A stretch of 24,214 bases of DNA, taken from the IMG/VR virus record IMGVR_UViG_3300049214_000160, positions 1 to 24,214 of that record; one strand, given 5' to 3'. The DNA is from a virus. The notes below the pieces were generated by a model that worked only from the letters and a program-made list of their open reading frames with translations, had not been told where the DNA came from and searched no databases. Numbering within the stretch: position 1 is the stretch's first letter; each line of letters begins with the position of its first letter. The position numbers and the translations under genes are program-made. Shown piece by piece: positions 1,427 through 21,891 of the stretch.

Positions 1427-1463
1427 AGGTATATGCGCAAGGGTCCCCCTTTACCATATCTCT
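1427..1463 (-). repeat. 37-bp palindromic intergenic repeat, copy 1
   Basis: Imperfect palindrome in the 69-bp gap between the tape measure stop codon and the next start. Its parts on the + strand are AGGTATAT, GCG, CAAGGG, TCC, CCCTTT, ACC, ATATCTCT, the same 8-3-6-3-6-3-8 arrangement as the copies at 5451, 14451 and 21855. Strand is given for the AAGGGGGACCC orientation of the core. The repeat ends 29 bases before the GTG start at 1493. Operator, promoter or RNA-hairpin function is inferred from position only. Confidence 0.75.
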
Positions 1464-1492
1464 ACTAGCAACACAGTTAGGAGTTAAATTCG

Positions 1493-1957
1493 GTGGAAAT
1501 TTTCACAGTCGTTTGCGAAAACGTGGCAGTAACGGCCGCCCAGGATGTTATTGGCGCCTATGCCTCGGCGTCGAAGAAGTTGCAGCTTCTGGCGGTTGAA
1601 CTTAGTGCCAATGGCCAAACGACTGTAGGCAATTATCCTCTCCGTTTGCGCTATTTGCCCGCAACGGTAACTAGCGGCAGCGGCGGCAGTGCGGCAACGC
1701 CGCATAATGTCAATCCCGATGGGGCGGGGCCAAGTTTCACGGCAAGGACAAATGACACAGTTCATGCCATTTCCAGCAATACCGTTGTGGATTATGTGGC
1801 GTCGCAATTTAACCCGATTAATGGCTATTATTGGCAACCCCCCGTGGGGGTGGGTGAAGAGCCAAAGGCCGATCTTTCGGGCGCCCTAGTATTGTCACTT
1901 GACACCGTGACAGGCACACTCAATATCAGTGCCACGATGTGGCTTCGGGAAATCTAA
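1493..1957 (+). CDS. Minor tail protein candidate, unknown function
   Basis: 154 residues starting at GTG, preceded by AGGAG at 1479-1483 with good spacing. The protein is rich in Val, Thr, Ser and Asn, with a beta-structure-like composition, a Gly/Ser-rich linker near residues 62-67 and a C-terminal run of alternating hydrophobic residues ending in a Trp-containing tail. No signal peptide or membrane segment is visible. It lies between the tape measure and a lectin-like tail protein and ends 14 bases before the next start, so a structural tail role is likely. I do not recognise a named family. The palindromic repeat at 1427-1463 lies in its 5' region and may control it together with the following tail genes. 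Confidence 0.7.
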   Translation: MEIFTVVCENVAVTAAQDVIGAYASASKKLQLLAVELSANGQTTVGNYPLRLRYLPATVTSGSGGSAATPHNVNPDGAGPSFTARTNDTVHAISSNTVVDYVASQFNPINGYYWQPPVGVGEEPKADLSGALVLSLDTVTGTLNISATMWLREI

Positions 1958-1971
1958 TAGGAGTTACGGCC

Positions 1972-3519
1972 ATGGCAACTTTGCTTCTAGAGGGATTTGA
2001 CGATTATGGACCTGCAAATATATACTCGTCCTCGGCGCAAAGTCTGCTAAACTCGGGCGGCTGGAACTGCATAACACCCTATACGTCGCCTAGCATTGTG
2101 GCGTCGCTTACTGGCGAGCCTGGGTATGCCGTTAGTTTGGCCCAGGTCTCAGCCGGCGCCGGGGCTACCTTTTCCCAAAGTCTGGGGCCGAACCAAAACC
2201 GATTGATCGGCGGCTTTCGCTTTAATATGAACCTCTTTGCTACATCGGGGATTTCTTTTGGCGACTTAAACACCAGTCAGTTTACCATTTTGGTCGAGGC
2301 TGGAACCGGCTACATAATGGTTTGCCAAAGCTATGAAGGCGATTGGAGTTCCTCGCCGCCGTATGTGGCTAGAAGCACCGTTGCGGTAGCGGCAAACACA
2401 ACGCATTATTTGGAATTTGACATAACATTCCAACCAAATGCCACCGGCGGTATAACTGTCTGGCTCGACGGCGTGCAAGTGCTCACTTGGACTGGGCAAA
2501 CGAGCCAGAGTGGTAATGCTTGGGCCAACTTGGTGCAGTTTGTCACCAACTCGGGCGCTGCTGGGAATTATACGTTCGACGATTTTTACCTTTTTACTCC
2601 GAGTGGCAGCTTCAATAATGCCGTGCTTTTGTCCAACCCGGTTATTATAACACAAGAACCAATAGCCGATGTCCAAGCACAGTTTACCAATCAAGGAAAC
2701 TTGATCGGGTATTCTTATTCATTATCCGGGGCTTTCGGCCAGGTTAATGGCAATAGCCTGTTTTTGATGAAGATTTCGCCGAACGTAAATTGCACCTTGG
2801 ATGACATTGTTATTCAGGTGTGCTACGGGGGGAATAATTCCGGCGCAAATATGAAAGGCGTGTTGTATGCCGACAACAGTGGAGCGCCAGGTAGTCTTTT
2901 AAGCACCGGGACACAAGTTACGGGGTTTGTGCAAAACGTCCCTATAGTGTTGCCGTTGGCAACTCCCACGGCGTTGACGGCCGGGACGAATTATTGGCTC
3001 GGGTTCATAACTGACACGACCTTGTATTTGCAGCTTTTCGACGGTGTTACCACCGGCGGAGCCGTGGCCAGCAACACGTATACCAGTGGGGCACCGGCTA
3101 CAGCCCCGACTATGTCGTATAACCAGAGTTCTCTTTTTCTTTATGGCGAGTGCACCAATGCGGCGCACAATTTTGCTAGCGTGGATTTGGTGCCTGCGCC
3201 AGGAGATATTTCTTCAGTCGCGTCGGCAACAATCGGCATCAGCGACCTATACAGTTATGCGGCCCTGCCGTTGAATATAACCGCCGTGTATGCAGTAGGT
3301 GTCAAGGGCACAGCGAAACTCTCTGTGGCCGGCACCCATACGATTAATATGTTGATGAAATCGGGAACCGTCACAAGCGCTGGTTCCGAGCCTGGTTTGG
3401 TTCCAAATTTGAGTTACGGGAATTATACGAGTTATTTTGACACCGATCCCAATACATCCACCACCTGGACGGTTTCTGGTGTAAACAACAGTAGCGCCGG
3501 TATGAGTGTGGCAAGTTAA
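1972..3519 (+). CDS. Tail protein with concanavalin-like (LamG-type) domain
   Basis: 515 residues from the ATG at 1972, which has an AGGAG site at 1959-1963; an in-frame upstream start at 1939 lies inside the previous gene and is less likely. The first ~210 residues have the features of a phage concanavalin-like jelly-roll domain: an LLLEGFDDY opening, alternating beta-type segments, and a HYLEFDITF ... ITVWLDGVQVLTWTG ... YTFDDFYLF pattern. The second half includes a module with TLDDIVIQVCYGG, VLYADNSGAPGSLL and TAGTNYWLGF, typical of extracellular or virion beta-sandwiches. The C-terminus is Ser/Thr/Asn-rich. Such proteins usually decorate the tail or bind surface glycans. Its place among minor tail genes supports a receptor- or carbohydrate-binding role, which remains an inference. 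Confidence 0.75.
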   Translation: MATLLLEGFDDYGPANIYSSSAQSLLNSGGWNCITPYTSPSIVASLTGEPGYAVSLAQVSAGAGATFSQSLGPNQNRLIGGFRFNMNLFATSGISFGDLNTSQFTILVEAGTGYIMVCQSYEGDWSSSPPYVARSTVAVAANTTHYLEFDITFQPNATGGITVWLDGVQVLTWTGQTSQSGNAWANLVQFVTNSGAAGNYTFDDFYLFTPSGSFNNAVLLSNPVIITQEPIADVQAQFTNQGNLIGYSYSLSGAFGQVNGNSLFLMKISPNVNCTLDDIVIQVCYGGNNSGANMKGVLYADNSGAPGSLLSTGTQVTGFVQNVPIVLPLATPTALTAGTNYWLGFITDTTLYLQLFDGVTTGGAVASNTYTSGAPATAPTMSYNQSSLFLYGECTNAAHNFASVDLVPAPGDISSVASATIGISDLYSYAALPLNITAVYAVGVKGTAKLSVAGTHTINMLMKSGTVTSAGSEPGLVPNLSYGNYTSYFDTDPNTSTTWTVSGVNNSSAGMSVAS

Positions 3520-3531
3520 GGATAAAGACCG

Positions 3532-4545
3532 ATGACCACTTATACTTATCCAGACCGCGTGAAGTTTACCACAGCGACAACGGGGACTGGGAGCGTTACT
3601 GTTGGCTCGGCTTTTGTAGGCTTTCGCACCCCTGCGACCGCGGGACTCGGCACTACAACAACGACACAATACGTGATCGAAGACAATGGCGGGGCTTGGG
3701 AGATCGGCACAGCGACGTGGAATAGCGGCGCAACGGTTATGACCCGAAGTGTGAACTTGAGCAGCAACTCGAACGCTTTGATTAGTCTTTCCGGTTCGGC
3801 CTTGGTTTATATGGTGGTCGAAGGCAGCTCGATTGCCTCATTTTTAGTCAGCGGTGGAGTGGGGGCTTTAGCTCGGGCCGTTCTTGGCGGCGTGACCGAC
3901 GACGGTAGCTCGCCCTTGCAAACTGCGGCGCCTGTGGTTATTACCGATGCAACAACCAATATGCAAAGCTTGACTATTAACGGCTCGGGTAATAGCAACG
4001 GAGGTGCAATCGAAATAATAGGCAACGGGGCTACGACGCCCAAAAAATGGCTACGGGTTTCCAGTGGTCTTTTGGAAGTCATAAACAGTGCATATAGTGC
4101 CGTTATTGTGATTATAGACGACAGCGGTGATGTTACGTTTACTGGAGCGACTACAACAACGGATTTAATTTTGCCCAACTCTAGCGCCAGTTTGGTTGGT
4201 GCTTGGACCGCTTTTACGCCGACTGTTACTTCCCTCACAGGGACTTTGACAACGGTAAGCGCTGTGGGGCAATATAAGCAAATAGGGAAATCGGTATTTA
4301 TCAATATCAATATAACCATAACGACGAATGGAACCGGAGCTACGTTGATAAAATGCACTTTGCCCTTTACTACTGAAATCAATACTTGTAATATTTCGGG
4401 AAGTGAAATAGCTGTTACCGGAAAGTCTATTAAGGGCACAGCGTATGGGACAGATAATTTTATGTATATAACGAATTATGATAACTCATATCCAGGGGCC
4501 GATGGAGCCGTGCTTAACCTAACTGGCGTTTATCAAACAGCATAA
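3532..4545 (+). CDS. Tail fibre-like structural protein
   Basis: 337 residues; the ATG follows an AAGGATAA ribosome-binding sequence just after the preceding stop codon. The N-terminal ~100 residues carry a pattern I associate with alphaproteobacterial phage tail proteins: DRVKFTTATTGTGSVTVG, then TTQYVIEDNGGAWEIGTATW and a TRSVNLSSNSNALISLSGSA stretch. The middle is Gly/Asn/Thr-rich, and the C-terminal ~110 residues (beginning GAWTAFTPTVTSLTG) resemble the trimeric beta-rich end of phage fibres. No membrane segment or enzyme motif is seen. It lies between the lectin-like protein and the first DUF2460 protein and is separated from the latter by one base. Likely role: host-recognition fibre or virion-surface protein. 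Confidence 0.7.
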   Translation: MTTYTYPDRVKFTTATTGTGSVTVGSAFVGFRTPATAGLGTTTTTQYVIEDNGGAWEIGTATWNSGATVMTRSVNLSSNSNALISLSGSALVYMVVEGSSIASFLVSGGVGALARAVLGGVTDDGSSPLQTAAPVVITDATTNMQSLTINGSGNSNGGAIEIIGNGATTPKKWLRVSSGLLEVINSAYSAVIVIIDDSGDVTFTGATTTTDLILPNSSASLVGAWTAFTPTVTSLTGTLTTVSAVGQYKQIGKSVFININITITTNGTGATLIKCTLPFTTEINTCNISGSEIAVTGKSIKGTAYGTDNFMYITNYDNSYPGADGAVLNLTGVYQTA

Positions 4546-4546
4546 G

Positions 4547-5440
4547 ATGATAATTTCCGGCGCGCCCATATCTAGCATACCGCTATCGTCAGCGCCCATA
4601 CAACTCGGTGGGGGTAATGTTGTATTCGACAACATTACTCGAAGAATTTTGGTATCGGGTAAAAGTAGCGCAAAGCTAGTAGTTAGTGGCGTTACTCGGC
4701 GCAACCTAGTTTCGTCCCACAGCACGGGTGGGGCAAAGCTAGTTTTTTCCTCCGTCACACGCAAGACTTTAGGACTTTTTGTTCCCTCGGCCCCGCTTAA
4801 TAGCAGCGGCCCAATTCCCGTGTTTCCCACGCTGCCCCAAGGGTATCCGATTAAAGTCAGCCCGGTGCTTGATACGACACTTGGGACGACGAAATCTTTG
4901 CGCGAAATGCGGGTGGCGCAGCAAACGTATCCGATTTGGGACATTGAAATCCTTTTCGAGCAACTAAAGGATCAAACGCAAAATCAGACGCCGTATGTGC
5001 CGTTCACAGGCTATACGCAGTATATGCAACTCGTGCAGCTTTGGCTCATGATGTATGGCCAAGCCGGGGTTTTCTATTTCACCTGCCCGTGGGACTATTC
5101 GCGCAGTAATCAAGCATTCGGCACTGGTGACGGCAACACCATTGCGTTTACCGTTTACCGCACGTGGGGGCTCGGCGCCCAGGCGACTGTGGCCCCCGTG
5201 GGCGGGATTAATGCCGTTAACACGCTTTACGTCAATGGGGTGGCGCAAAGTCCATCAAGTTATTCGGTCCAGCGAAATAAAATTGTGTTTAACAATCCGC
5301 CGGCCGCGGGGGCTACCCTGAGCCTTACATTCACGTATTATTATGTTTGTCGATTTACCGAAGATGACCAGGATTATGAAGAGTTTGCGAAAAATCGTTG
5401 GTCTGTTCAGAGCTTGAAGTTCAGGGCATCGCCATGGTAA
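4547..5440 (+). CDS. DUF2460 family tail protein (first paralogue) with N-terminal repeats
   Basis: 297 residues, starting one base after the previous stop with no clear ribosome-binding site, so probably translationally coupled. Residues ~93-297 form a DUF2460 domain: FPTLPQGYPIKVSP, a QTQNQTPYVPF segment, VFYFTCPWDYSRSNQAFGTGDG, then a central insertion and a C-terminal WSVQSLKFRASPW. DUF2460 proteins correspond to gp12 of the Rhodobacter gene transfer agent, a distal-tail component. Ahead of it, residues ~24-78 contain three copies of a short repeat with pattern [NK][LV]V(F/V)xx(I/V)TR(R/K)xL, spaced 19-21 residues apart; the neighbouring paralogue lacks this part. The next gene encodes a second DUF2460 protein. 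Confidence 0.8.
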   Translation: MIISGAPISSIPLSSAPIQLGGGNVVFDNITRRILVSGKSSAKLVVSGVTRRNLVSSHSTGGAKLVFSSVTRKTLGLFVPSAPLNSSGPIPVFPTLPQGYPIKVSPVLDTTLGTTKSLREMRVAQQTYPIWDIEILFEQLKDQTQNQTPYVPFTGYTQYMQLVQLWLMMYGQAGVFYFTCPWDYSRSNQAFGTGDGNTIAFTVYRTWGLGAQATVAPVGGINAVNTLYVNGVAQSPSSYSVQRNKIVFNNPPAAGATLSLTFTYYYVCRFTEDDQDYEEFAKNRWSVQSLKFRASPW

Positions 5441-5450
5441 GATGGGTGGC

Positions 5451-5487
5451 AGGCATATCTGCAAGGGGGACCCTTTTGCATACATCT
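5451..5487 (+). repeat. 37-bp palindromic intergenic repeat, copy 2
   Basis: Lies in the 68-bp gap between the two DUF2460 genes. Its parts are AGGCATAT, CTG, CAAGGG, GGA, CCCTTT, TGC, ATACATCT. The core is identical to copy 3 over AAGGGGGACCCTTTTG; the outer arms are less perfect. Relative to the gene it precedes, it points the opposite way from the other three copies. It ends 21 bases before the ATG at 5509. Confidence 0.75.
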
Positions 5488-5508
5488 TGCAGCAAGGCAT
5501 AATATCCG

Positions 5509-6186
5509 ATGGCCTATATTTTCTTTCCCTCGCCAACCCCAGTGTTTCCCGCCCTGCCCGTGCAGGGGTGGAGCGTGAACAAGCGGCCTATTATGGCCTC
5601 ACGCACAACCATTGCAGCGAGTGGGAGGGAAAATCACCTGGCTTGTGCCTCTTATCCGCGTTGGGCCTTTAAGTTGACTTTCGGGGGCGACAGTTGGCTT
5701 CGGGACCAGACGCAAAATATTGTGCCTGATCCGACGAAAAGCGGTCTGACAGAGTTTGAACAAATATCCGGGCTCTTTCTTGCCTGTCGCGGCAGCTATG
5801 GGGAGTTTTACTTTTCCGACCCTGATGACAATTCACGGCTGAGTCAAACCGTTGGGACGGGAAATGGAACACAAACTTCATTCCCCGTGACTTATTCTTG
5901 GGGCACTGGACCTTTTACGCCGTCCATGACCATACCTGTAGGCGGGATTAAAACGCTCAATGCCGTTTATCTTAATGGGAATGTTTTAGGCACGAGCAGC
6001 TATTCCATAGACGCGACGAATACGCAAATTGTCTTCGTCTCGCCCCCAATTCAGGGAAGTGTGATTACGGCGGATTTTAGCTTTTATTTCCGCTGTCGGT
6101 TTATGGACGATACGCTCGTGTTCTCGCAATTTGAACAAAACCTTTGGGAATTAAAAGAACTTCAGTTCGAGAGCGTAAAACCGTGA
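5509..6186 (+). CDS. DUF2460 family tail protein (second paralogue)
   Basis: 225 residues. It shares the layout of the preceding protein: an FPALPVQGW opening, a DQTQNIVPDP segment, YGEFYFSDPDDNSRLSQTVGTGNG, the insertion with PVGGIKTLNAVYLNGN, and a C-terminal WELKELQFESVKP. These match FPTLPQGYPI, DQTQNQTPYVP, AGVFYFTCPWDYSRSNQAFGTGDG, PVGGINAVNTLYVNGV and WSVQSLKFRASPW of the neighbour, so the two genes are an old tandem duplication. In gene transfer agent-type tails one DUF2460 protein is normal; two suggest hetero-oligomeric or specialised distal-tail subunits. The start at 5509 gives the match to the neighbour from the first residues; only a weak AAGG lies upstream, next to the palindromic repeat. 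Confidence 0.8.
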   Translation: MAYIFFPSPTPVFPALPVQGWSVNKRPIMASRTTIAASGRENHLACASYPRWAFKLTFGGDSWLRDQTQNIVPDPTKSGLTEFEQISGLFLACRGSYGEFYFSDPDDNSRLSQTVGTGNGTQTSFPVTYSWGTGPFTPSMTIPVGGIKTLNAVYLNGNVLGTSSYSIDATNTQIVFVSPPIQGSVITADFSFYFRCRFMDDTLVFSQFEQNLWELKELQFESVKP

Positions 6187-6217
6187 AAAGAACTAAAGTG
6201 TCACCGGAGCGCAGCGC

Positions 6218-7611: not shown

Positions 7612-7614
7612 ATT

Positions 7615-9909: not shown

Positions 9910-9912
9910 AAG

Positions 9913-10311: not shown

Positions 10312-10321
10312 GAGCGGGATT

Positions 10322-10876: not shown

Positions 10877-10900
10877 CAAACGGAATGGAAGGAGCAAATC

Positions 10901-12508: not shown

Positions 12509-12513
12509 AATGA

Positions 12514-12544
12514 ATGGGAGAGCGAAGCTCGCTCTCCCATTTTT
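12514..12544 (+). terminator. Intrinsic terminator ending the plus-strand late operon
   Basis: A perfect 12-bp stem (ATGGGAGAGCGA at 12514-12525 with TCGCTCTCCCAT at 12529-12540), a three-base loop AGC, and TTTT at 12541-12544. It follows the last + gene and lies between converging operons. Read from the minus strand the stem is preceded by AAAAA and followed by a moderately T-rich stretch, so it may act in both directions. Confidence 0.92.
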
Positions 12545-12547
12545 ACG

Positions 12548-12685
12548 TTATACGATTTCCCAAATAATATAGAGCCCGAGTAACACAATAACCCCTGTGA
12601 AGATTTGGCAACAGAGGACTAAAAAGTTCCGAAGCATCATATCCCTATGATGAGCCAAGAGTTTTTCTTCATATTCCTTCATCAT
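12548..12685 (-). CDS. 45-residue single-pass membrane protein downstream of ribonucleotide reductase
   Basis: The reading frame starts with two Met codons; the first overlaps the stop of the reductase gene (ATGA), and GGAG lies five bases before it, inside the reductase 3' end. The first ~19 residues are charged and polar (KEYEEKLLAHHRD), followed by a hydrophobic stretch of about 24 residues from NFLVLCC to YIIWEIV, a likely single transmembrane helix with the N-terminus probably in the cytoplasm. It stops three bases before the T-run of the terminator. The overlap, ribosome-binding site and membrane pattern support a real gene despite its small size. No family recognised. Confidence 0.7.
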   Translation of the reverse strand: MMKEYEEKLLAHHRDMMLRNFLVLCCQIFTGVIVLLGLYIIWEIV

Positions 12686-14421
12686 CCACACTCCACTTGG
12701 CCCGTGATTGGGTCGGGCATTGTGCAGACAACGGCGTCTGCAGCCTGTTCTTCATCCTTGGCAATGAGTAGGGCCATGCGTTTGCCGTCCGAATTGAAGG
12801 TGGCGCAGCCCTTGCACCCCGACTCCCATGCCGTGCGATAGAGGTTTTTGAAAGCGTCCCAAGGCATGGCCGAGGTCATGTTGACGGTCTTCGACACGGC
12901 CGAGTCAACATGTTTTTGCGCCGTGGCAAGAACCGCAATGTGTTCTTGCGCCGTGACTTGCGAGGCCAGCTTGCCCCGAGTGCCAAGGTAAGCAGCAGCG
13001 TAGTCCGTGACGGTGGCCATTTCCGGCCCTGTGGGCGTGTTGATTTGCCGTGTGAGTTCGTAGGCAAAAACAGGTTCACAGCCGCCACTGACGTTATCGG
13101 CGCAAAGGGATATGGTGCCTGTCGGTGCGATTGATGTCAGGTGGCTGTTGCGGATGCCGTGTTTGCGGATGGCCGAGCGCACATGGTCTGGTAGGGTTTG
13201 GATGAATTTGCCCGACAGATACCGTTCCTCGTCGTAGAGGGGAAAGCTGCCTTTCTCGGCAGCAAGCTGGGCGCTGGCGAGATACGCGCCTTCCTTGATG
13301 GCTTGCAACACGGCGCTTTCAAACCTAAGAAACTCAAGACTACCGTAGACATGGCCACAGGCTTCGCCGGCATTGGCAAGGCCCATGACGCCGAGACCCA
13401 TGCGGCGCTTTGATAAGGCTTCGGCCTTTTGCTCGGCGAGCGGATAAAGAGTCCGGTCGATTACATTGTCCATGCCCCGAACAACGATGGGAATGTCCTC
13501 AAGTAATTGGTCCATGTCGAAATAGTATTTGCCGAATTGGCCGATGACATCGAGTAGGTTGGGCTTGAGATACTTCGTAAGATTGAAGCTGCCAAGCAAA
13601 CAGGCGCCGAAGGGTGGCAAGGGCTGCTCACCGCATGGGTTAGTGGCGGCAATGGTTTCGGCATACCACAAGTTGTTCATCTTGTTCACGGTGTCGATGA
13701 AGATGACGCCGGGCTCGGCATAATCCCATGTGCTCCGCATGATCTTTTCCCAAAGTTCGGCGGCATTGATGGTCTTGTAGACCGAACCTTGGAATGTTAG
13801 ATCAAAGGGCTTTTCGGCGTAGACCGCTTCCATGAATTTGTCGGTAATAGCAACGCTGATGTTGAAGCCCGTGAGGTTTGTGGCATTTTGTTTTGCGCGG
13901 ACAAATTCCTCGATATCCGGGTGATCAACCCGAAGCATGCCCATCTGGGCGCCCCGACGATGGCCCGAGGATGAGGTGGCGAGGCACACGGCATTGAAGA
14001 TGTGCATGAAAGACACAGGGCCGGAACTTTGGCTCTGGAGCTTTCGTATCATGTCGCCGCGGGGGCGCAAGGTGCTGAAATCGTAGCCGATGCCGCCGCC
14101 CATTCGCATGGTTGCCGCGGCCTCTTTTGCGCGCCCCATGATGCTGCCGCTGCCCTCGACAAATGAGTCTTCAATGGTGCCCGAGACGTAGCAATTAAAA
14201 GCCGTGGTGGCGCGGCTGGCACCCATTGCGCCCTGGATGCGGCCGCCAGGGCAAAACCTTTGCGTTAGCAGGATTTGCCGCAGATCATGATAGTGCTTGT
14301 CGCTGTCTTTTAGCCCGAAAGCCACTCGGTTCATGGCTTCACGAAAGTCTTCGCCGATGCCACGATACTTTAGTGCGTGGAGCGAGTCTGCGGCGAGAGT
14401 CTGGGGGCCGAAATTAGACAT
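12682..14421 (-). CDS. nrdJ: Adenosylcobalamin-dependent (class II) ribonucleoside-diphosphate reductase
   Basis: 579 residues that reduce ribonucleotides to deoxyribonucleotides for phage DNA synthesis. Visible hallmarks are FNCYVSG (C77, one redox Cys), MRMGGGIGYDFSTLRPRG, SSSGHRRGAQMGML, the radical-site motif NPCGEQPLPPFGACLLGS (C263, E265), and APTGTIS (432-438). There is no adjacent small-subunit gene, as expected for a class II enzyme using vitamin B12. Compared with bacterial NrdJ it is short: no ATP-cone is seen at the N-terminus, and the C-terminus ends in GQVECG without an evident CxxC pair, leaving C566 and C578 as candidates for the redox tail. The ATG has TAGGAAA upstream, and a 37-bp palindrome ends 29 bases before it. 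Confidence 0.93.
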   Translation of the reverse strand: MSNFGPQTLAADSLHALKYRGIGEDFREAMNRVAFGLKDSDKHYHDLRQILLTQRFCPGGRIQGAMGASRATTAFNCYVSGTIEDSFVEGSGSIMGRAKEAAATMRMGGGIGYDFSTLRPRGDMIRKLQSQSSGPVSFMHIFNAVCLATSSSGHRRGAQMGMLRVDHPDIEEFVRAKQNATNLTGFNISVAITDKFMEAVYAEKPFDLTFQGSVYKTINAAELWEKIMRSTWDYAEPGVIFIDTVNKMNNLWYAETIAATNPCGEQPLPPFGACLLGSFNLTKYLKPNLLDVIGQFGKYYFDMDQLLEDIPIVVRGMDNVIDRTLYPLAEQKAEALSKRRMGLGVMGLANAGEACGHVYGSLEFLRFESAVLQAIKEGAYLASAQLAAEKGSFPLYDEERYLSGKFIQTLPDHVRSAIRKHGIRNSHLTSIAPTGTISLCADNVSGGCEPVFAYELTRQINTPTGPEMATVTDYAAAYLGTRGKLASQVTAQEHIAVLATAQKHVDSAVSKTVNMTSAMPWDAFKNLYRTAWESGCKGCATFNSDGKRMALLIAKDEEQAADAVVCTMPDPITGQVECG

Positions 14422-14450
14422 GGGGTTTTCCTACAATTGGGGTTAGGATT

Positions 14451-14487
14451 AGAGATATGTGAAAGGGGGACCCTTTTGTATATCTCT
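14451..14487 (+). repeat. 37-bp palindromic intergenic repeat, copy 3 (best palindrome)
   Basis: Parts are AGAGATAT, GTG, AAAGGG, GGA, CCCTTT, TGT, ATATCTCT: perfect 8-bp outer arms and perfect 6-bp inner arms around a three-base centre. It lies in the 74-bp gap between the stop of the DUF3987-like gene and the reductase start, 29 bases before that ATG in the direction of transcription. It could be an operator, a promoter element or an RNA hairpin; there is no T-run for a normal terminator. Confidence 0.8.
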
Positions 14488-14495
14488 TGCGTAGA

Positions 14496-15686
14496 CTAGG
14501 CGTTACCGAAGCTGGTTATTGCGTTGGGTATCCATTCGTCGGGATATGGTCCTTTCCTGAAATACCCGGTCCGTTCTGCAACTTCAATCAGGTTTTTGAT
14601 ATTGTTGCTTGGAACCCGAGTGTGGAGAAATTCATACATGGCCGAAGTGGGAATGGGTTTGCGCTTGTCGATGGCCACGGACGAATACATACGATAAAGA
14701 TGGTAGTGCATGTCGGTGATGACTTGGGCGTCCGATTTCATCCCCATGGCGCGGAATATGTCGGGCATGGGGATTTCGGCCTCAAGAAGCCAATCTTTGG
14801 CGCGCTCGAAGTCTTCGACCGTGACTATGAGTTCGCCTGTGCAACGGGAGGCGGAGGATATCATGGCGAGTTTGATTGTGTGGAGTGCGCGGCGAACGGT
14901 GTAGTGGTGAAGTTTGCTGTGCGTCGGCTTGGGTGGGCAACCCGCCCGGTTCCAAGCATTGATTTCATCAATGGCATTTTGCGTCCATTTGAACTCGCCC
15001 TTGTAGTCGAAGATTTCGGCGAGCTTGGATTCAAGAGCCGAACTCTTGATTTCAACATGAGAAAACAAATCAGCAGTGGGCGCGGCATCGGCATAGATCA
15101 TAATAAGACGTGATGTGAAGCCCATACCCCAGGCTTCGTCCGGCAGGAAGCTGTTGAGGAAGTCCGGTTGGGTGCCGGCGAGAACGACAAGATAAGGTTT
15201 GACGACTTCAATAATACCTGCGGTGCGGCGTTCTTCACGGTAGTTTGCCGGGTTGTCATAAATGTGATTGAGCACCGAAAGAAATTCAAGATCGTGGTGG
15301 GTGAAGAAGACACCAAATTCTGAGCAGGGCACAGCCATGGCCGAAAAGGTATAGGCCATGGATTGACCGTTGATGATGGTGCGAAGCGAACGAGATAAGG
15401 CGTCAATCAGGGCGGCCTTGGTTACGTTGTCGGGGGCTAGGTTCAAGCCTTGCATACGGCTCCATAGGTCACGGATTGGGCGGATGGCGTTGGTTTTGCC
15501 CGAGGCCGGAGGCCCAACCAACAGAGTTAGCATGTTGGGAAAGATCGGCCCCGCAGAGCCGGTTGTGTAAACCTTGCGTTCGAGCACGCCGCTTATGGCC
15601 GTGATTGCGGACCATAGGCGGTAGAGTTCCGGGCTCGGCACAGCGGCCGTTTCCTTCACGTATTCTTCGATGAAATCAAAGGCCAT
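14496..15686 (-). CDS. DUF3987-like P-loop ATPase, probable replicative helicase/primase component
   Basis: 396 residues. Walker A GPPASGKT at residues 58-65 after NMLTLLV. Later segments, EFGVFFTHHDLEFLSVLNHIYD, VVLAGTQPDFLNSFLP and GFTSRLIMIYAD, follow the RecA-like core pattern of DUF3987 proteins, which are found beside phage and plasmid replication genes. The C-terminal ~100 residues (ITDMHYHLYRMYSS ... VPSNNIKNLIEVAERTGYF) look like a winged-helix DNA-binding region. It lies after DNA polymerase and the mini P-loop protein in the same operon, suggesting a helicase or loader at the fork. No zinc finger or TOPRIM primase domain is seen. The exact activity is inferred. Confidence 0.7.
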   Translation of the reverse strand: MAFDFIEEYVKETAAVPSPELYRLWSAITAISGVLERKVYTTGSAGPIFPNMLTLLVGPPASGKTNAIRPIRDLWSRMQGLNLAPDNVTKAALIDALSRSLRTIINGQSMAYTFSAMAVPCSEFGVFFTHHDLEFLSVLNHIYDNPANYREERRTAGIIEVVKPYLVVLAGTQPDFLNSFLPDEAWGMGFTSRLIMIYADAAPTADLFSHVEIKSSALESKLAEIFDYKGEFKWTQNAIDEINAWNRAGCPPKPTHSKLHHYTVRRALHTIKLAMISSASRCTGELIVTVEDFERAKDWLLEAEIPMPDIFRAMGMKSDAQVITDMHYHLYRMYSSVAIDKRKPIPTSAMYEFLHTRVPSNNIKNLIEVAERTGYFRKGPYPDEWIPNAITSFGNA

Positions 15687-15697
15687 TGGAGGTCTTC

Positions 15698-15922: not shown

Positions 15923-15932
15923 AAAGTTTCCC

Positions 15933-17363
15933 CTAGTGCAACGTGAATTTCTTCAACCCGTTTGGGTTCTTTTCCGAGGCATTGCCCCAATTGAAGCCGG
16001 TTTTGGCTTCGGTTGGGACCGCAAATTTGCGCTTGTTGGGTGCGATGAGTTCAACGTGGAGATGTTTTTCGGCGCGGGGAACTACGTCTTCGGCTTTGAG
16101 ATCGTTGGGAAACTGGAAATAGATTGCGTCGTGAACTTGGGCGAGAAGTTGGACCTCGGGCATATGACGCCAGACGCGCCACATACCGAGATTTAAGTTG
16201 TCGGCCGTAGGTGCTGCGGCGAGAAATGCGAGAGCTTTGCGAAGGGTTTCGTCGGCATAGGTGCGGTCAAAAAAGTCCCGTCGGCGGCCGTGGATTGACA
16301 CAAGTTGTTTCTTTGTCTGCAATTCGGTTGCCGTCCAAGCGTGCCACTTCTGCAACGCGGGGAAGGCGTCGAAGTATTTTTCTTGGAAGGGTTCTACAAG
16401 ATTGATCGGGATGTGAATGAGCTTTGATAGTGTCGGGGCTTTGCCGAGGAAGTTGGTGCCGTGGCCGAGTTTCTTGCAGCAATCTCGGTAGGTGAAGTGG
16501 CGATAGAATGGCTGTTCGGCAATCTTTTTATCTTTTTTCAAATCCCCAGTCCAACCAAGATCGGGCCACGTCAGTCGTGCAACAGCCGTGTGCAAATCTC
16601 CCGACTCACAGGCATCAAGATAGGTCCAGTCGTCGAACAAAAGGCCGCAGATATATCCGACCATTCGGCTATCGCTTTGAGAAGCGTCGATGCCGACAAG
16701 TGTGTATCCTGGGTCGGCAACAAGTATGTGCCGTAATGCTTCGGATATATTCTGTAAATTTGTTCCGCTACCTGTAGGGGACTTGCTTGAACTAAATCGG
16801 GCGCTCTTTGTCCCACCAATGTTATATGAAGTCCTCATTCTCCAATCTAGGTCCACCTCGGTCTCAAGCACCGAGAGCTGTTTAGACAAGTCTCGGTGTT
16901 CCAACACACAGGCTGCAATGGGCCGTGCTTGAAAATAGTCTTCCACTTGCTCAATGATAGCTCGGTCCATAGGAAACTTAAGTTCCCCTTTGACATAGGC
17001 TTTGATTTCTGGGATGCCGAGTCTGCCATAGAATAGCTCCTTTAGTTGCGGGCCAGAGTTCGGATTAAGAGGTTTGTCCCACACCGCATGGGCGAGTTGG
17101 TCGATGACGAAGTCCATCCGGGCGAGTTGGCGTTTGGTTTCGGCAATGCCAAGTTCGCGGGCGGCCGGATCGACGCGGAAGCCCCGGAGCATCATTTCAA
17201 GCACGGGCGCCTGGAGAGCGAGTTCAAAGCTATAGGCCGGCTCGGCCTCCTGGCGCTGGGGCTGGAGCTTTTCAAAGATTTCATGCGTTAAACAGCAATC
17301 GAGAGCGTTATAAATTTGTTCGCTGCCCGAATTTACGTCAAGCGTGTGCGACCCTACTAGCAT
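15933..17363 (-). CDS. DNA polymerase A, polymerase domain (exonuclease N-part encoded separately)
   Basis: 476 residues. The first ~30 residues contain YNALDCC (18-24), the YxxxD Exo III motif of the 3'-5' proofreading domain, whose Exo I and II motifs are at the end of the gene at 18599. Then come thumb and palm: SARFSSS ... TNLQNISEALRHI (187-213), motif A GIDASQSDSR (224-233), motif B RDCCKKLGHG (293-302) and motif C QVHDAIYF (409-416). Unusual residues: D231 at the steric-gate Glu position, H301 at the Phe/Tyr position of motif B, and A413 for the Glu of HDE. The catalytic D226 and D412 are present. The ATG overlaps the stop of the NUMOD3-type gene. Role: copying of the phage genome, presumably with the UDG-exonuclease protein. 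Confidence 0.92.
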   Translation of the reverse strand: MLVGSHTLDVNSGSEQIYNALDCCLTHEIFEKLQPQRQEAEPAYSFELALQAPVLEMMLRGFRVDPAARELGIAETKRQLARMDFVIDQLAHAVWDKPLNPNSGPQLKELFYGRLGIPEIKAYVKGELKFPMDRAIIEQVEDYFQARPIAACVLEHRDLSKQLSVLETEVDLDWRMRTSYNIGGTKSARFSSSKSPTGSGTNLQNISEALRHILVADPGYTLVGIDASQSDSRMVGYICGLLFDDWTYLDACESGDLHTAVARLTWPDLGWTGDLKKDKKIAEQPFYRHFTYRDCCKKLGHGTNFLGKAPTLSKLIHIPINLVEPFQEKYFDAFPALQKWHAWTATELQTKKQLVSIHGRRRDFFDRTYADETLRKALAFLAAAPTADNLNLGMWRVWRHMPEVQLLAQVHDAIYFQFPNDLKAEDVVPRAEKHLHVELIAPNKRKFAVPTEAKTGFNWGNASEKNPNGLKKFTLH

Positions 17364-17644
17364 GAAACATTGCTTTCTTGTTTCTTGGCCCTTTGCTCAG
17401 CATAAAAAGCCAGCATCCGTTTGCTTAGCTTTTCCTTTGTTTTCTCACTGTGCCTAAAGCCTGGAGTTCGGCCCCCGAGACCCTTGTGCAAATGAATACC
17501 TCTAACCCGCATACGCCGCCAGAAAGAGCTTTTGCCTACACCGAGGCGCTGGCATATTTCGTCGCTGCGAAGCCCCTGGGCTATGAGTTTGTCGCAAGCG
17601 GCGTCAAGGCCCGAGTCTTCCCAATCTATTCCGCGCGCTGGCAA
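17357..17644 (-). CDS. HTH/NUMOD3-type DNA-binding protein, homing-endonuclease related
   Basis: 95 residues starting at TTG three bases after the preceding stop codon, with GAGGGAAA upstream. Residues ~14-48 (LDAACDKLIAQGLRSDEICQRLGVGKSSFWRRMR) form a resolvase-like helix-turn-helix. Residues ~61-77 (PGFRHSEKTKEKLSKRM) match the NUMOD3 pattern of DNA-binding modules attached to homing endonucleases. No GIY-YIG, HNH or LAGLIDADG catalytic motif is visible, so it may be a degenerate remnant or a domesticated regulator. Its stop overlaps the polymerase ATG. It lies inside the segment that interrupts the polymerase/exonuclease domain, which suggests that a homing-type element caused the split. 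Confidence 0.65.
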   Translation of the reverse strand: MPARGIDWEDSGLDAACDKLIAQGLRSDEICQRLGVGKSSFWRRMRVRGIHLHKGLGGRTPGFRHSEKTKEKLSKRMLAFYAEQRAKKQESNVSC

Positions 17645-17647
17645 GAT

Positions 17648-17881
17648 TTAGTTTCCCTCTAAGCGAATGATAATAGCTTTGAGCACGGAGATCATGTCAG
17701 CGCGCTCGGCGTTGGATATGTAGTTGCAGAGTTTTGCATCGCTCCCGTCGGCGATGAGCAGAACAAAGGCCGTGGTGCGTTTTTCACCATAATCGTCGCC
17801 ATTGAGCACCCGGTCGATATGAGTGGCAAGGGTTTGCATATCGACGTAGTGTTTTTGGTCAATGGTTTTGTCTTCGGGCAT
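17648..17881 (-). CDS. Small hypothetical phage protein
   Basis: 77 residues from the ATG at 17881, which overlaps the upstream TAA (TAATG) and follows AGAAGGAAC; a longer frame to 17911 has a poorer start. The sequence has an acidic N-terminus (MPEDKTIDQKHYVDMQTL), a central beta-type segment (AFVLLIADGSDAKLCNYISN) and a C-terminal helix (ERADMISVLKAIIIRLEG). The FVLLIADGSDAKLCNYISN stretch resembles a small protein common near phage replication genes, but I know no proven function. It is part of the five-gene block between the exonuclease and polymerase genes. Confidence 0.75.
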   Translation of the reverse strand: MPEDKTIDQKHYVDMQTLATHIDRVLNGDDYGEKRTTAFVLLIADGSDAKLCNYISNAERADMISVLKAIIIRLEGN

Positions 17882-18057
17882 TATATCAGTTCCTTCTCTT
17901 TTGCCAACCATTCGGGCATGGCCATGGTTTTGTCATCCGAGTCCCATTCGCATTGGGATTTAGGCAACCAAACCACACGTTTGCCGTCGAAGAATTGATA
18001 GGCTTTTTCCGTTTCATTTCGGATTTCGCCTGCAATATCGACCAGGTCGCTTTTCAT
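17881..18057 (-). CDS. 58-residue hypothetical phage protein
   Basis: Short gene joined on both sides by overlapping stop/start codons: its ATG overlaps the stop of the MazG-like gene (ATGA) and its TAA overlaps the next ATG (TAATG). The protein is acidic with an N-terminal helix (SDLVDIAGEIRNETEKAYQF), the phrase FDGKRVVWLPKSQCEWD, and an end MPEWLAKEKELI. This WLPKSQ ... MPEWLAxxKxLI layout resembles small proteins seen in other phage replication regions. No catalytic motif. Function unknown; probably translated by coupling because no clear ribosome-binding site is seen. Confidence 0.75.
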   Translation of the reverse strand: MKSDLVDIAGEIRNETEKAYQFFDGKRVVWLPKSQCEWDSDDKTMAMPEWLAKEKELI

Positions 18058-18395
18058 GGTATGGTGCTATGACTGTCAAGCATCTCGGCCCATTGCACGT
18101 GGTAATCGTGCTTCTTTTCAGCCCGAGCGTGTATGCGATCAACGTCAAGTTCAAACCGATCACCGATCAATTGAAGAAAGGCCATGACATCGGCAATTTC
18201 GTCTTCGAGCCAAACCCGATTTGGTTTGCCTGTGGCGGGATTGCTTTCGTCAATGCCTTGGCACAGGCACCGAGCCGCGGCACTAATACATTCGCCAAGT
18301 TCCTCTTGAAACTTGGATAACAGGCCAACGTCGGTTGGATGCGACATGGGTATCCAGGCGCTAGGACGAAGTTCGCCGAGTTCGTGGTCTTCCAT
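18054..18395 (-). CDS. MazG-like nucleotide pyrophosphohydrolase
   Basis: 113 residues. The MazG/all-alpha NTP pyrophosphatase motifs are visible: KFQEELGECISAAARC (residues ~28-43), holding the ExxE metal-binding pair, and WLEDEIADVMAFLQLIGDRF (~63-82), holding the ExxxD motif. These enzymes hydrolyse nucleoside triphosphates to monophosphates; in phages they may clear non-canonical nucleotides or lower (p)ppGpp. With the ribonucleotide reductase and the UDG domain, it suggests control of the dNTP pool and uracil in DNA. The ATG follows the upstream stop by three bases, with GAGG as a weak binding site. Confidence 0.82.
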   Translation of the reverse strand: MEDHELGELRPSAWIPMSHPTDVGLLSKFQEELGECISAAARCLCQGIDESNPATGKPNRVWLEDEIADVMAFLQLIGDRFELDVDRIHARAEKKHDYHVQWAEMLDSHSTIP

Positions 18396-18398
18396 AAT

Positions 18399-18596
18399 TT
18401 ATGCCTCGTCATTTGGTAAAAGGGTTTTGGCCACAACTTGTTGACATTCGCCGCAATAAAGATACGGGCCGAAGCCGCCGCCAGCAAGGCCGAAGCCGTC
18501 GGTGAAGAAGGGAAACGGGCAAGCGAGATTGCCGCAGTGCTTTTCTTCACCGAGTTCGGGAATGTTGCGGTTTTTGTCGCTGCTATCTATGTGCAT
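18399..18596 (-). CDS. Small zinc-ribbon-like protein
   Basis: 65 residues with four cysteines, C21 and C26 (CGNLAC) and C48 and C51 (CGEC), a spacing compatible with one structural zinc site. Between them is a Gly/Phe-rich segment (FFTDGFGLAGGGFGPYLY). The ATG lies two bases after the stop codon of the UDG-exonuclease gene. Such small zinc ribbons may bind nucleic acid or a partner protein. No named family recognised. It is the first gene of the block separating the exonuclease part from the polymerase part. Confidence 0.7.
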   Translation of the reverse strand: MHIDSSDKNRNIPELGEEKHCGNLACPFPFFTDGFGLAGGGFGPYLYCGECQQVVAKTLLPNDEA

Positions 18597-18598
18597 GA

Positions 18599-19696
18599 CT
18601 ATTCATCCCTCTTGAGGTTATTGCCCCGACCGCTCATAGTCTTCCAAGCAATCTCGTCCGAATATATACTGCCAAGGAACCCGAGGCTTTTCAGCATTTC
18701 CGGATAAAGCGCGTGGTGAAGTAGCATGGTGTCGTTATGGCAGGCCGCAGGGCGAAACTTCCGTGTGAGCAAATGTGATAAGTCGTAAACCCCATTTTGG
18801 AATAGTTTGGGAATGGGCGAAGCCAAGGCTTGTTGGGCCAGGCGCCAGGCCGCGACTTCATCCCGCACCGAAGGCCAGTAGTTGCCGCCCGGCTTGGTTT
18901 CGTCGAAGAATGGAATTACCATGGCGTCGTTGTGCGCCCGGGCGAAGCCGATCATGGCGATCTGGCCCGACAAGTATGCGGGCTTGCCACCAGGACTTAC
19001 GAGTTTTGGGTTCTCGATATCAACCGCGTAGAATTCGGCGGGACGGGTCAACCATTCTCGGATTTCATCCAAGGTGGGGTTGACGGTGAGCCAACGCTCA
19101 ATCCGGTTGATATGAGTAGTTGCTGCTTCACGCTCGGCTTTTTCAAGGTCTGCGAGCACAATGGGACGAAGGTTCCACTGGCGCAAAACAGCGGCAGGAT
19201 GATATGTGGGAAGGACTTTGACTCCGAGGCGGGCGGACATTTGAAGCGTGCCTCGGAGGGCGGAGATTTTGGTTTCGCCAAGCAGAGCCCAGCAAGCTGT
19301 GTTGCCGAACGCAATAACAAGATTGGGTTTTTCACATTCAATCTCATGCCAAAGATTGGTAAGATGAGGCAAATACTCAGACTTGAGATACTTGCCGCGC
19401 TTCAACGGCGGAAGTTCTGCGACACCAGACTTTGCATCGGTGAAAAATAGTTCCACATTGTTGTCTGTGGGCCGGCAGTTGAATACGTTGGCCAAGGCTA
19501 TGTCGTGGTTTGACCGAAGCTCTTGCCAAAACGTGATCATTTCAAGCTCGGAAGGTTTATCGTAGGGCAAGGCCGGGGCGAGTTTGGCCTGGTGGAGCAT
19601 TTTGGCAAGCTCGACGCCCGAGTAGCCGACAAAAGCGTGCTCGAACAGGTTTTCCCGTTCGCCCCAGGCTTCGCCAACAAGGACAATTTTAGACAT
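18599..19696 (-). CDS. Uracil-DNA glycosylase fused to N-part of polymerase 3'-5' exonuclease
   Basis: 365 residues. Residues ~1-190 are a uracil-DNA glycosylase-superfamily domain: GEAWGE (8-13), FVGYSG (22-27), NVFNCRP (70-76) and TYHPAAVLR (164-172). Residues ~215-365 begin a DnaQ-like proofreading domain: Exo I in FYAVDIENP (D226, E228), Exo II in NGVYDL (N301, D305), then DTMLLHHALYPEMLKSLGFLGSIY. The protein ends abruptly at NLKRDE just where the Exo III helix should follow; that helix (QIYNALDCC) is at the start of the polymerase gene 1.28 kb downstream. A UDG-like domain joined to family A polymerases is known from some phages. The start overlaps the preceding stop by eight bases. Confidence 0.88.
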   Translation of the reverse strand: MSKIVLVGEAWGERENLFEHAFVGYSGVELAKMLHQAKLAPALPYDKPSELEMITFWQELRSNHDIALANVFNCRPTDNNVELFFTDAKSGVAELPPLKRGKYLKSEYLPHLTNLWHEIECEKPNLVIAFGNTACWALLGETKISALRGTLQMSARLGVKVLPTYHPAAVLRQWNLRPIVLADLEKAEREAATTHINRIERWLTVNPTLDEIREWLTRPAEFYAVDIENPKLVSPGGKPAYLSGQIAMIGFARAHNDAMVIPFFDETKPGGNYWPSVRDEVAAWRLAQQALASPIPKLFQNGVYDLSHLLTRKFRPAACHNDTMLLHHALYPEMLKSLGFLGSIYSDEIAWKTMSGRGNNLKRDE

Positions 19697-19925
19697 TGAG
19701 TTTGGCCTTGTGATATGCTTCGAGACGCTCTTGCACGCCCTCGGTTATGAGGGCAAGATAGGCGGCAAACATTACCGAGTCAGTGGTGCATGAAGCTAGG
19801 ACGCCGAGCACAACGCTTTCGAGCGCGATCATAAGATCGGTTTCGTCCGGAAAGGTGCTGAGGAGTTTGCGGACAATAATGTCCGTAACCACATTGTGCT
19901 TTTCGTGCGGCGCAAGCTCTGTCAC
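19689..19925 (-). CDS. Small hypothetical protein before UDG-exonuclease
   Basis: 78 residues from a GTG that overlaps the upstream TGA (GTGA); a longer frame to 19967 would run into the previous gene. The protein starts VTELAPHEKHNVVTDIIVRKLL and is predicted to be helical, with a mid-portion LMIALESVVLGVLASCTTDSVMFAAYLALI that is fairly hydrophobic but not a clear membrane helix. The end overlaps the UDG-exonuclease start. No motif identifies its function; the operon position suggests a replication accessory role. Confidence 0.68.
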   Translation of the reverse strand: MTELAPHEKHNVVTDIIVRKLLSTFPDETDLMIALESVVLGVLASCTTDSVMFAAYLALITEGVQERLEAYHKAKLNV

Positions 19926-20134
19926 GGGTCCATTCCCATCTGCATGAGTTCGTCCACAAGCTCGCAAGCAAGTTGCTTGGCGGGATCGAGGCGCTCAAAT
20001 ACGCCGTGGCAGGCGCCTTTGCGATGGACATGGAACGGCCAACCGCCACCGCAATATACGACGGTGATTTTTGTGCCCGAAAGGCTTAGGTGCTTCGGTT
20101 CAATCAGTTCCCATTTGATCTTCTCGACTTCCAT
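19922..20134 (-). CDS. Small hypothetical protein
   Basis: 70 residues; the N-terminal half looks beta-rich (IKWELIEPKHLSLSGTKITVVYCGGGWPFHVHRKG) and the C-terminal half helical (VFERLDPAKQLACELVDELMQMG). The ATG lies four bases after the stop of the 55-residue gene upstream, with ACGGAA as a weak binding site. Its stop overlaps the next start. One His-x-His plus Cys pattern is present, but no known motif. Function unknown. Confidence 0.65.
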   Translation of the reverse strand: MEVEKIKWELIEPKHLSLSGTKITVVYCGGGWPFHVHRKGACHGVFERLDPAKQLACELVDELMQMGMDP

Positions 20135-20138
20135 GAAA

Positions 20139-20306
20139 TTATTCCGTTTCTTTTAGAAGGTTTTCGCTAACTTTCAGGGCTTCGATGAGTTCTTTCCGTG
20201 CAGGTTCACTCATGACATTTTCGAGAAAATCGTCTATGGCGGAATATAGTCTTCCGTGTGCTTCCAAAATATCTTGGATTTGCCGAATAGTTTTATTGAT
20301 TTCCAT
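20139..20306 (-). CDS. 55-residue hypothetical helical protein
   Basis: Short reading frame preceded by a strong GGGAGGAAA ribosome-binding site that lies over the 3' end of the methyltransferase gene, four bases from its stop. The protein is nearly all helix-forming: EINKTIRQIQDILEAHGRL, then AIDDFLENVMSE, then ARKELIEALKVSENLLKETE, with heptad-like spacing of hydrophobics. Charged, no cysteine, no membrane segment. The strong binding site, tight spacing and gap-filling position make it a real gene. No family recognised; it might be a small coiled-coil or anti-protein. Confidence 0.72.
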   Translation of the reverse strand: MEINKTIRQIQDILEAHGRLYSAIDDFLENVMSEPARKELIEALKVSENLLKETE

Positions 20307-20310
20307 GGCT

Positions 20311-21837
20311 TTAATTTTCCTCCCGGTTCAACATACCGGCTTGGCGCAAAACCCTGGCTTGCAAAGTCCTGGCGTTGGCCGAGGCAGCATAGTTCGGGTC
20401 CATTTCTATGCCAAGAATGGATTTGGCGCCGAGGTCTTCCGCCGCGCGCAGGGCTGCGCCCGAGCCGCAAGTCGGGTCCAAAACATTTGTGGTTTCGTCC
20501 ACAACCATAGAGAGAAAGTGGCGGAGCATGGGTTCGGGCTTTTGGGAGGGGTGAATTTTATTGCCGACGGTGGGGGCGGCATAGCTGTTCATGCCTGGCT
20601 TGGCTAGGGGGCGATTGCCCCGCACCGCTAGTAGGGCAGTGTCATAAGTGCGCCTGGGATAGGTGGTAGCGGTCCCTGGCACCACGCCTAGGCCACCGCC
20701 ACCGCCAGGGGTCTTGTGCCACACTAGGGGATGGTCATGGACCATCAGCCCAGCCCCACGCAAGCGCCGCACGGTTTCCGTATAGAAGTTCATGTTGAAC
20801 CAAAAAACGAGGTGAGCGCTGTAGCTCATGAGCCGATCTAGGTTTTCAACCAAACCGTTGAGCAAGTCCCAATAGATGCTCTCGTGATTGTCGTAGAAGT
20901 TCTCGGTCTCCACACCGGCCATTGAGCCCTTGCTGTCTTCGCCCTTGTAGTTGCCATACGGAAAGTCGCAATGGATGAGGGAGAACTTTGGACCGTCGTA
21001 GGTTTTGGCCCAAAGCAGAAAGTCGGCATTGATGATAGGATTTTCCGGCTTGACCACTGCGTCAATGTATTTGACCATGACGCCGGTTTCCACACCGGAG
21101 GTTGGGGCCTTGGCTTTGGCATTTATGCTGTCGAACATATCAAATACGGCCGAGTCGGCTTTGCGTTCCTCTGCAATCTTGACGCTCGATGTAATAGTGA
21201 AGTCGCCGTCGGCCGCAGGCTGGGGTTTGGTGGAAATATTGAGGTCGCCGAATGAGTTAAATACCGCAGCGCCGTTGGCAATGATATCGGTCACGATGCT
21301 TTCAGCCTTGCGCTCGGCAAACTTTGCAAGCGTGTTATACGCTTGTTCGATGCTTTCAACGTGCGCAATACGGGGCGAGTCTAGGTTGTCATAGACTCGG
21401 AGGATTTTGTGCAAATGGGTTTGGTGGATGGATAGGGCCTGGCAGGTCTGCGACACGAGCCAATTCTTGTTGCTTTTCATGTATAGGGCGTGTAGACGGC
21501 CGACCGAGCGCACATGGTCTCGCCACAACAAATCTTTCCGCTTGACATTCTCTTCAAGTTCGATGACCTCGGCCTCGGCCTCGGTAAGGGCCTCGTATGA
21601 GCGCACAGGGACGGTTTCGAGTTCGAGTGCAATCGAGGCCAAGAGGCGCCTTTCACCGGCTACAAGAACGTGTTGGTCTTTGATCTTGCGGCAAACGATC
21701 GGATTGATTATGCCCGTGGCTTTTATACTTGCTTTCAGGTCTTCAAATTCATGCACGTTGAGTTGGCGCTGGCGAGTTTCCCGACGCACAACAATGGTTT
21801 TTGGATCAAGCAATAAGTCAGTTGCGACGAGGGACAT
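20311..21837 (-). CDS. ParB-like nuclease domain fused to DNA (N4/N6) methyltransferase
   Basis: 508 residues. Residues ~1-175 are ParB/Srx-like: ASIKATGIINPIVCRK, HVLVAGERRLLAS (GERR at 61-64), an ELEENVKRKDL segment and a KorB-type helix-turn-helix region. Residues ~275-490 are an amino-methyltransferase in beta order: motif IV as CDFPYG (290-295), a variant of DPPY, then HPSQKP (429-434), then motif I DPTCGSG (454-460) and GIEMD. It should methylate adenine N6 or cytosine N4. ParB-methylase fusions are frequent in phages and mobile elements; no restriction enzyme is nearby, so protection of the phage genome from host restriction or gene regulation is likely. A 37-bp palindrome lies 17 bases before the ATG. 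Confidence 0.9.
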   Translation of the reverse strand: MSLVATDLLLDPKTIVVRRETRQRQLNVHEFEDLKASIKATGIINPIVCRKIKDQHVLVAGERRLLASIALELETVPVRSYEALTEAEAEVIELEENVKRKDLLWRDHVRSVGRLHALYMKSNKNWLVSQTCQALSIHQTHLHKILRVYDNLDSPRIAHVESIEQAYNTLAKFAERKAESIVTDIIANGAAVFNSFGDLNISTKPQPAADGDFTITSSVKIAEERKADSAVFDMFDSINAKAKAPTSGVETGVMVKYIDAVVKPENPIINADFLLWAKTYDGPKFSLIHCDFPYGNYKGEDSKGSMAGVETENFYDNHESIYWDLLNGLVENLDRLMSYSAHLVFWFNMNFYTETVRRLRGAGLMVHDHPLVWHKTPGGGGGLGVVPGTATTYPRRTYDTALLAVRGNRPLAKPGMNSYAAPTVGNKIHPSQKPEPMLRHFLSMVVDETTNVLDPTCGSGAALRAAEDLGAKSILGIEMDPNYAASANARTLQARVLRQAGMLNREEN

Positions 21838-21854
21838 GGGGCAGGTTCCAGAGT

Positions 21855-21891
21855 AGAGATATGCGAAAGGGTGACACTTGTGTATATACCT
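21855..21891 (+). repeat. 37-bp palindromic intergenic repeat, copy 4
   Basis: Parts are AGAGATAT, GCG, AAAGGG, TGA, CACTTG, TGT, ATATACCT. The inner arms have a mismatch compared with copy 3; one outer arm (AGAGATAT) is identical to it and the other (ATATACCT) is the complement of AGGTATAT of copy 1. It lies in the 111-bp gap before the ParB-methyltransferase gene, 17 bases from its ATG. Confidence 0.72.

Follow-up and report, generated by a model that had tools for sequence, protein, structure and literature searches.

The window, by which we mean the whole stretch of 24,214 bases analysed here, is a viral record from IMG/VR. Its left half carries plus-strand tail genes, and its right half carries, on the minus strand, genes for a ribonucleotide reductase (RNR), a primase/helicase, two DNA polymerase pieces, a ParB-methyltransferase, and a Sak4-like protein. 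Where these two arms of genes meet, at ~12509–12545, lies a perfect inverted repeat (GGGAGAGCGAAGCTCGCTCTCCC) that is probably a two-way terminator. The DNA polymerase is split over two genes (15933–17363 and 18599–19696) that match different parts of one PHROG (phrog_17), with small genes standing between them, and the same two-gene layout is present in the related contigs G005, G006, and G007.

Four 37-bp palindromes lie in gene gaps of the window, with coordinates and sequences as given in the preliminary description. Each was assigned to the strand whose centre reads GGGAC. Site 1 (1427..1463, minus strand) lies in the gap between a tape-measure-like gene (stop at 1423) and a conserved tail-cluster gene (1493..1957, plus strand). 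Site 2 (5451..5487, plus strand) lies between the first (stop at 5440) and the second (5509..6186, plus strand; phrog_2913) DUF2460-type tail genes; Pfam DUF2460 was found in the G007 homologue of the gene directly upstream of the second. Site 3 (14451..14487, plus strand) is the most symmetric of the window copies and separates the primase/helicase-like gene (14496..15686, minus strand, stop at 14496; phrog_14296, E 4.5e-45) from the gene for the RNR large subunit (12682..14421, minus strand, start at 14421; PHROGs phrog_84, E 9e-134). Site 4 (21855..21891, plus strand) precedes the ParB-methyltransferase gene (20311..21837, minus strand). The distances to the start codons, reported before as 29, 21, 29, and 17 nt for sites 1 to 4, were reproduced, as was the observation that copies 1, 3, and 4 are alike in the orientation of their centres relative to the gene while copy 2 is reversed. 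Prediction and inspection found no intrinsic terminators at the four window sites.

Relatives of the window were sought among uncultivated phage contigs from IMG/VR through pattern and protein searches. A symmetrised scoring matrix built from five copies gave scores of 47–54 on the copies versus at most 6.6 on shuffled sequence, a separation of ~40 bits. The IUPAC pattern found 1–11 sites per site-bearing contig, and the same pattern read backwards as a control found none in these contigs except one in G006. Homologous sites numbered one in G001/L003, four in G005, six in G006, 12 in G007 (a contig of 61.7 kb), five in G022, and two in G026; the 12th site of G007 was detected later, by dyad counting. 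Contigs with more divergent cores carried two sites (L091/G034, L096, and L097) or one (L095 and L102), and one of the two L096 sites was near-identical to the L095 site. Including the window, the homologous sites total ~40. Further copies stand at gene starts and the family is conserved in relatives, which is the reverse of the outcome that the preliminary description had named as telling against it. Single matches in G023, G024, and G025, one of them deep within a long gene, fell outside the family and were treated as chance. The portal protein of G007 (L072:6752-9394) carries a fused inorganic-pyrophosphatase domain (PF18823).

The site family appears to be undescribed so far. No site was found in 84,980 bacterial and archaeal genomes with one exact pattern, and a single blastn query with site 4 gave no convincing match in 50,697 GenBank phage records, both being searches that could miss diverged copies. 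The nearest cultured phages, Caulobacter phage Kuura and Brevundimonas phage Polewnik, were without such sites. Dyad counts and clustering revealed no repeated palindromes in other ParB-methyltransferase phages or in RNR relatives, although palindrome clustering was weak on contigs of ~20 kb and at stricter settings missed even the window's own set.

Nearly all of the sites are placed between genes. Only 6–20% of positions are intergenic, and 26 of the 31 sites in five contigs overlapped called genes by at most 2 nt; on inspection, most of the remaining five overlapped merely start-codon extensions of called genes. The usual order on the same strand was a stop codon, 0–20 nt, the site, 17–36 nt including the ribosome-binding site (RBS), and a start codon. 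Several junctions were occupied across phages, namely those before the ParB-methyltransferase gene, after the primase gene, before the second DUF2460 gene, before a major-tail-like gene, and before a capsid-region gene. The junction of site 2 was also occupied in G005, G006, and G007, and the gap after the primase gene was also site-bearing in G005, G006, G007, L096 (near-identical in L095), and L097. A conserved 43-aa ORF, not RNR, comes after the primase site in G005 and G006, so a gene follows the site there too. Homologues of the tail-cluster gene at 1493..1957 were 81–86% identical in G006, G007, and G022, where the site lies on the opposite side, after the gene rather than before it.

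Intervals between sites were typically 5–9 kb, with a site every ~6 kb along the genome (6.0, 8.6, 6.0, 6.4, and 5.7 kb in G006; 5.2, 5.1, 7.1, and 5.6 kb in G022). The mean coefficient of variation (CV) of spacing was 0.26 in five contigs versus 0.71 for equal numbers of random gene starts, and none of 5000 random draws of gene starts was as even as the real sites, the five contigs not being independent trials because they are related. One pair of sites in G007, 666 bp apart, was an exception to the even spacing.

The consensus of the sites was A-R-G-N-A-T-A-T-n(3)-n(5)-G-T-S-A-C-n(5)-n(3)-A-T-A-T-N-C-Y-T, with an invariant centre GTSAC that is symmetric about its S; some of the window copies have GGGAC/GTCCC here. 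It comprises two symmetric elements, a core of ~13–15 bp (AAGGGKSACCCTT in the window) and the outer arms ARGNATAT. Orientation relative to the gene was 20:13 among 33 sites in seven contigs (binomial p = 0.30) and thus carries no signal. The half-sites varied independently: 165 pairs were observed versus 161 ± 3 when right halves were re-dealt within clades, so a change in one half is not answered in the other. Judged from their sequences, the sites fit two independent half-sites on double-stranded DNA rather than a hairpin. Read as a stem, the 8-3-6-3-6-3-8 arrangement described earlier holds for the best copy but not for the family, since the outer 8-bp arms keep their sequence without pairing site by site. 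Arm positions 4 and 9 were strongly anti-palindromic in all sites, C standing with A and T with G (13 complementary pairs versus 28 ± 3.6 expected); as these positions pair below chance, we rejected the arms as simple palindromic subsites.

The core sequence changes in step at all sites of one genome, which is the strongest result of this study. Cores of one genome had an identity of 0.855, compared with 0.551 for cores at the same junction in other genomes and 0.572 for unrelated pairs; arm identity for these three comparisons was 0.80, 0.77, and 0.78. The core was therefore no more alike at the same junction across phages than at unrelated sites. Such a genome-wide concerted change implies a diffusible, sequence-specific trans-acting factor whose specificity for the core changes, and the constant arms suggest a second, unchanging contact. 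We are confident that the palindromes are operators for a trans-acting DNA-binding protein. Among the options raised by the preliminary description, this favours operators for a dimeric phage regulator, which are supported by the concerted evolution of the core, the independent half-sites, the random orientation, and the conservation at gene starts in relatives.

The leading candidate for the reader of these operators is the protein encoded at 20311..21837, a 508-aa fusion of a ParB-CTPase fold, a helix-turn-helix (HTH), and an N6-adenine-type DNA methyltransferase. It matched Pfam ParB_N and N6_N4_Mtase, the PDB profiles of Noc, ParB, Spo0J, KorB, CcrM, and DpnA, and, by Foldseek, Noc-DNA, ParB, and KorB (165–205 aligned columns for these three) as well as M1.HpyAVI. 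The AlphaFold2 model has HTH helices at residues 128–135 and 139–150 with high pLDDT, and both the model and the Foldseek matches locate the HTH domain behind the clamp domain. The ParB nucleotide motifs GERR and ENxxR were invariant in all seven sequences compared. ParA (PF13614) was absent from six contigs, which may be incomplete, in searches with positive controls.

Partition and Kor genes are known to be autoregulated, with a site directly before the gene. In the window, G005, G006, G007, and L096, the ParB-methyltransferase gene has a site immediately ahead of it, and in L097 a site stands just before the small gene that precedes the ParB-methyltransferase gene; the closer homologues of this gene in L101, L102, and L104 are not preceded by a site. 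GGG-type cores are accompanied by a recognition helix of the form LH/IH-x-x-H/Y (SIHQTHLHKIL in the window, SLHVTHVRKIL in G007, SIHHSYLRKIL in L096, and SLHHSYLRQIL in L097), and CAG-type cores (G005 and G006) by LSQ(V/A)QFHKIL. The recognition-helix residues split in the same way as the cores, in effect one evolutionary event. Many phages carry related ParB-methyltransferase genes (~40% identity) but yielded no repeated palindrome, a weak negative, and a single-protein scan found no relative in bacterial genomes. The link is circumstantial, and on the sequence evidence we put the probability that the ParB-methyltransferase reads the sites slightly below even.

Shortly before the ParB-methyltransferase genes of relatives there is a conserved element, (C/T)GACCTGGGCATGTC(G/A)CTAAAAGGCCYACC, at ~2718–2757 and ~2845–2884 in L096, ~1875–1914 in L101, ~4113–4152 in L102, ~1197–1236 in L104, and ~5335–5374 in L110. 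It is able to fold as an H-type pseudoknot, in which a change from C-G to T-A is compensatory. It had no match in Rfam and is possibly a SAM/SAH-sensing leader of a phage methyltransferase. In the window, a 95-aa ORF on the minus strand (17357–17644) has HTH-like and NUMOD-like stretches and adjoins a polymerase gene. It was ruled out as a common reader, being present only in the window, and is perhaps a homing-endonuclease remnant.

A less probable but serious alternative is that the sites serve as operators or stoperators not for the ParB-methyltransferase but for a phage repressor or activator of conventional type, as yet unseen, such as a ribbon-helix-helix-like early protein. The bound protein would then block initiation or elongation at operon heads, as in L5-type mycobacteriophages. 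The placement of the sites suits such a block, as they lie inside same-strand gene runs, mostly right after the upstream stop codon, where read-through transcription would meet the bound protein. Motif and regulator co-evolve likewise in Cluster A mycobacteriophages (PMC6550527). An unseen regulator is conceivable, the early region lying beyond this 24-kb contig, and G005, G006, G007, and L102 do have a small ribbon-helix-helix-like gene (located in the early region of relatives, L074 9526-9771). The presumed DNA-contacting strand of its product, IQ[LV]R[LI][FY], keeps its sequence in phages with constant arms and differs in those phages of the comparison that lack sites. However, the ribbon-helix-helix assignment was unconfirmed by Pfam, PHROGs, PDB, or Foldseek, and no integrase was recognised in six incomplete contigs in searches with positive controls. 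The sites are also symmetric and orientation-neutral, unlike L5 stoperators. The putative ribbon-helix-helix-like early protein, which could read either the arms or the core, is the main competitor of the ParB-methyltransferase or else its partner at the arms.

The preliminary description had also proposed RNA hairpins controlling mRNA processing, and we now consider it very improbable that the sites act as hairpins in 5' leaders, either for RNase III-like processing or as protein-bound structures. All window copies and most of the relatives' copies are able to fold, with a mean z of −3.3 relative to mononucleotide shuffles, but any palindrome folds, and the predicted RNA stability of the sites spans −1.5 to −20.8 kcal/mol. 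Re-dealing of the halves showed no compensatory base changes within clades, the sites had no match in Rfam, and the outer arms are kept by sequence and not by pairing. Taken together, the uncompensated half-sites, the unkept hairpin strength, and the random orientation argue for double-stranded DNA operators and against RNA or N4-type hairpins.

Promoters are equally improbable, whether read by a phage RNA polymerase of the single-subunit or N4 type, as suggested earlier, or by host sigma70. The position of the sites, 17–36 nt ahead of start codons with the RBS directly behind, would be in keeping with promoters, but the symmetry and neutral orientation of the sites are not, and sigma70-like matches in the window were at chance level (16 versus 14.7 expected). 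The annotated proteins of the 61.7-kb relative G007 include none recognised as RNA-polymerase-like, and its large proteins have other assignments. An N4-type virion RNA polymerase gene encodes ~3500 aa; the largest G007 protein has 1441 aa and is in the tape-measure position, in a contig that may lack a few kb. The likeness to N4 hairpin promoters that had been pointed out is thus superficial: a conserved directional hairpin is missing, most sites have a TSA loop, and the giant virion RNA polymerase gene is absent.

Least probable of all is that the sites mark boundaries at which recombination helps to exchange modules, or that they are a small mobile repeat in several copies. This would agree with the different neighbours that one site has in different phages (RNR in the window and G007, the 43-aa gene in G005 and G006) and with the one site that has switched sides relative to a conserved gene. 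Against it, all cores of a genome change together while orthologous positions are retained, the spacing is even, and no flanking duplications were noticed at the sites.

In the reading that we prefer, the palindromes would be double-stranded operators on which a dimeric DNA-binding protein of the phage is loaded, set before genes across the whole genome in ~6-kb steps. The HTH of the ParB-methyltransferase would recognise the core in a KorB-like manner, and the nucleotide-binding clamp domain would close and then slide along the DNA. The bound protein would regulate the neighbouring transcription units, among them its own gene. We regard this combined model, dispersed double-stranded operators or loading sites with the ParB-methyltransferase as the most likely reader of the core, as evenly balanced between right and wrong. 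The sliding clamp possibly carries the methyltransferase along the phage DNA. A clamp-methyltransferase loaded at parS-like sites every 6 kb might then methylate phage and not host DNA while setting transcription, a cis-restricted modification that is purely inferential and that we consider rather unlikely.

Phage fusions of a ParB-CTPase fold with an N6_N4 methyltransferase, joined as in the window protein, are common and already catalogued, and the survey passages retrieved by keyword assign no DNA sites to them (PMC12704722). If the palindromes are indeed the operators of the fusion, they would be candidate cognate sites, and the question of loading would be directly testable with a 37-bp oligonucleotide. 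Even with another reader, the sites delineate a regulatory network that spans the genome in an uncultivated phage lineage. The constant arm and the co-evolving core form a natural record of an operator set and its reader shifting specificity together.

Several known systems share features with the one described here. Phage N15, a plasmid prophage with ParA, has a ParB-type protein and several dispersed centromere inverted repeats that also affect gene expression. It resembles our phages in combining a ParB-type protein with dispersed palindromes and differs from them in that neither ParA nor an integrase was recognised here. The stoperators of L5 and other Cluster A mycobacteriophages are dispersed in many copies over each phage genome, and their motif, shared by all sites of one genome, varies from phage to phage along with the repressor; those of L5 are 13 bp long, asymmetric, oriented with transcription, and bound by a monomeric repressor (PMC6550527, PMC9283540). 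The motif here is also uniform within a genome and changes between genomes, whereas the sites are 37 bp, symmetric, and orientation-neutral. The SPbeta repeated element (SPBRE) was likewise an intergenic repeat before phage genes, found first in silico and later identified as the operator of MrpR, a master repressor of tyrosine-recombinase fold in a temperate phage; the 15-bp motif of SPBRE differs in sequence from the sites here (PMC10516654).

In its proposed way of working, the site system most resembles KorB/O_B of plasmid RK2, a likeness drawn from sequence and predicted structure. KorB is a ParB-family CTPase clamp with an HTH and has many dispersed operators (O_B) near promoters, together with a small co-regulator, KorA, that has its own site (PMC11790492). 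The system here differs in the methyltransferase on the ParB domain, the lack of a recognised ParA, the sequence of the core, and the constant arms that enclose the core in one 37-bp palindrome. The likeness lies in the number of sites, ~12 in 61.7 kb, and in a ParB-HTH protein whose own gene often bears a site. It extends to the operator itself, as the KorB operator has a 13-bp consensus of odd length with S at its axis, and the core described here is likewise of odd length with S at its axis.
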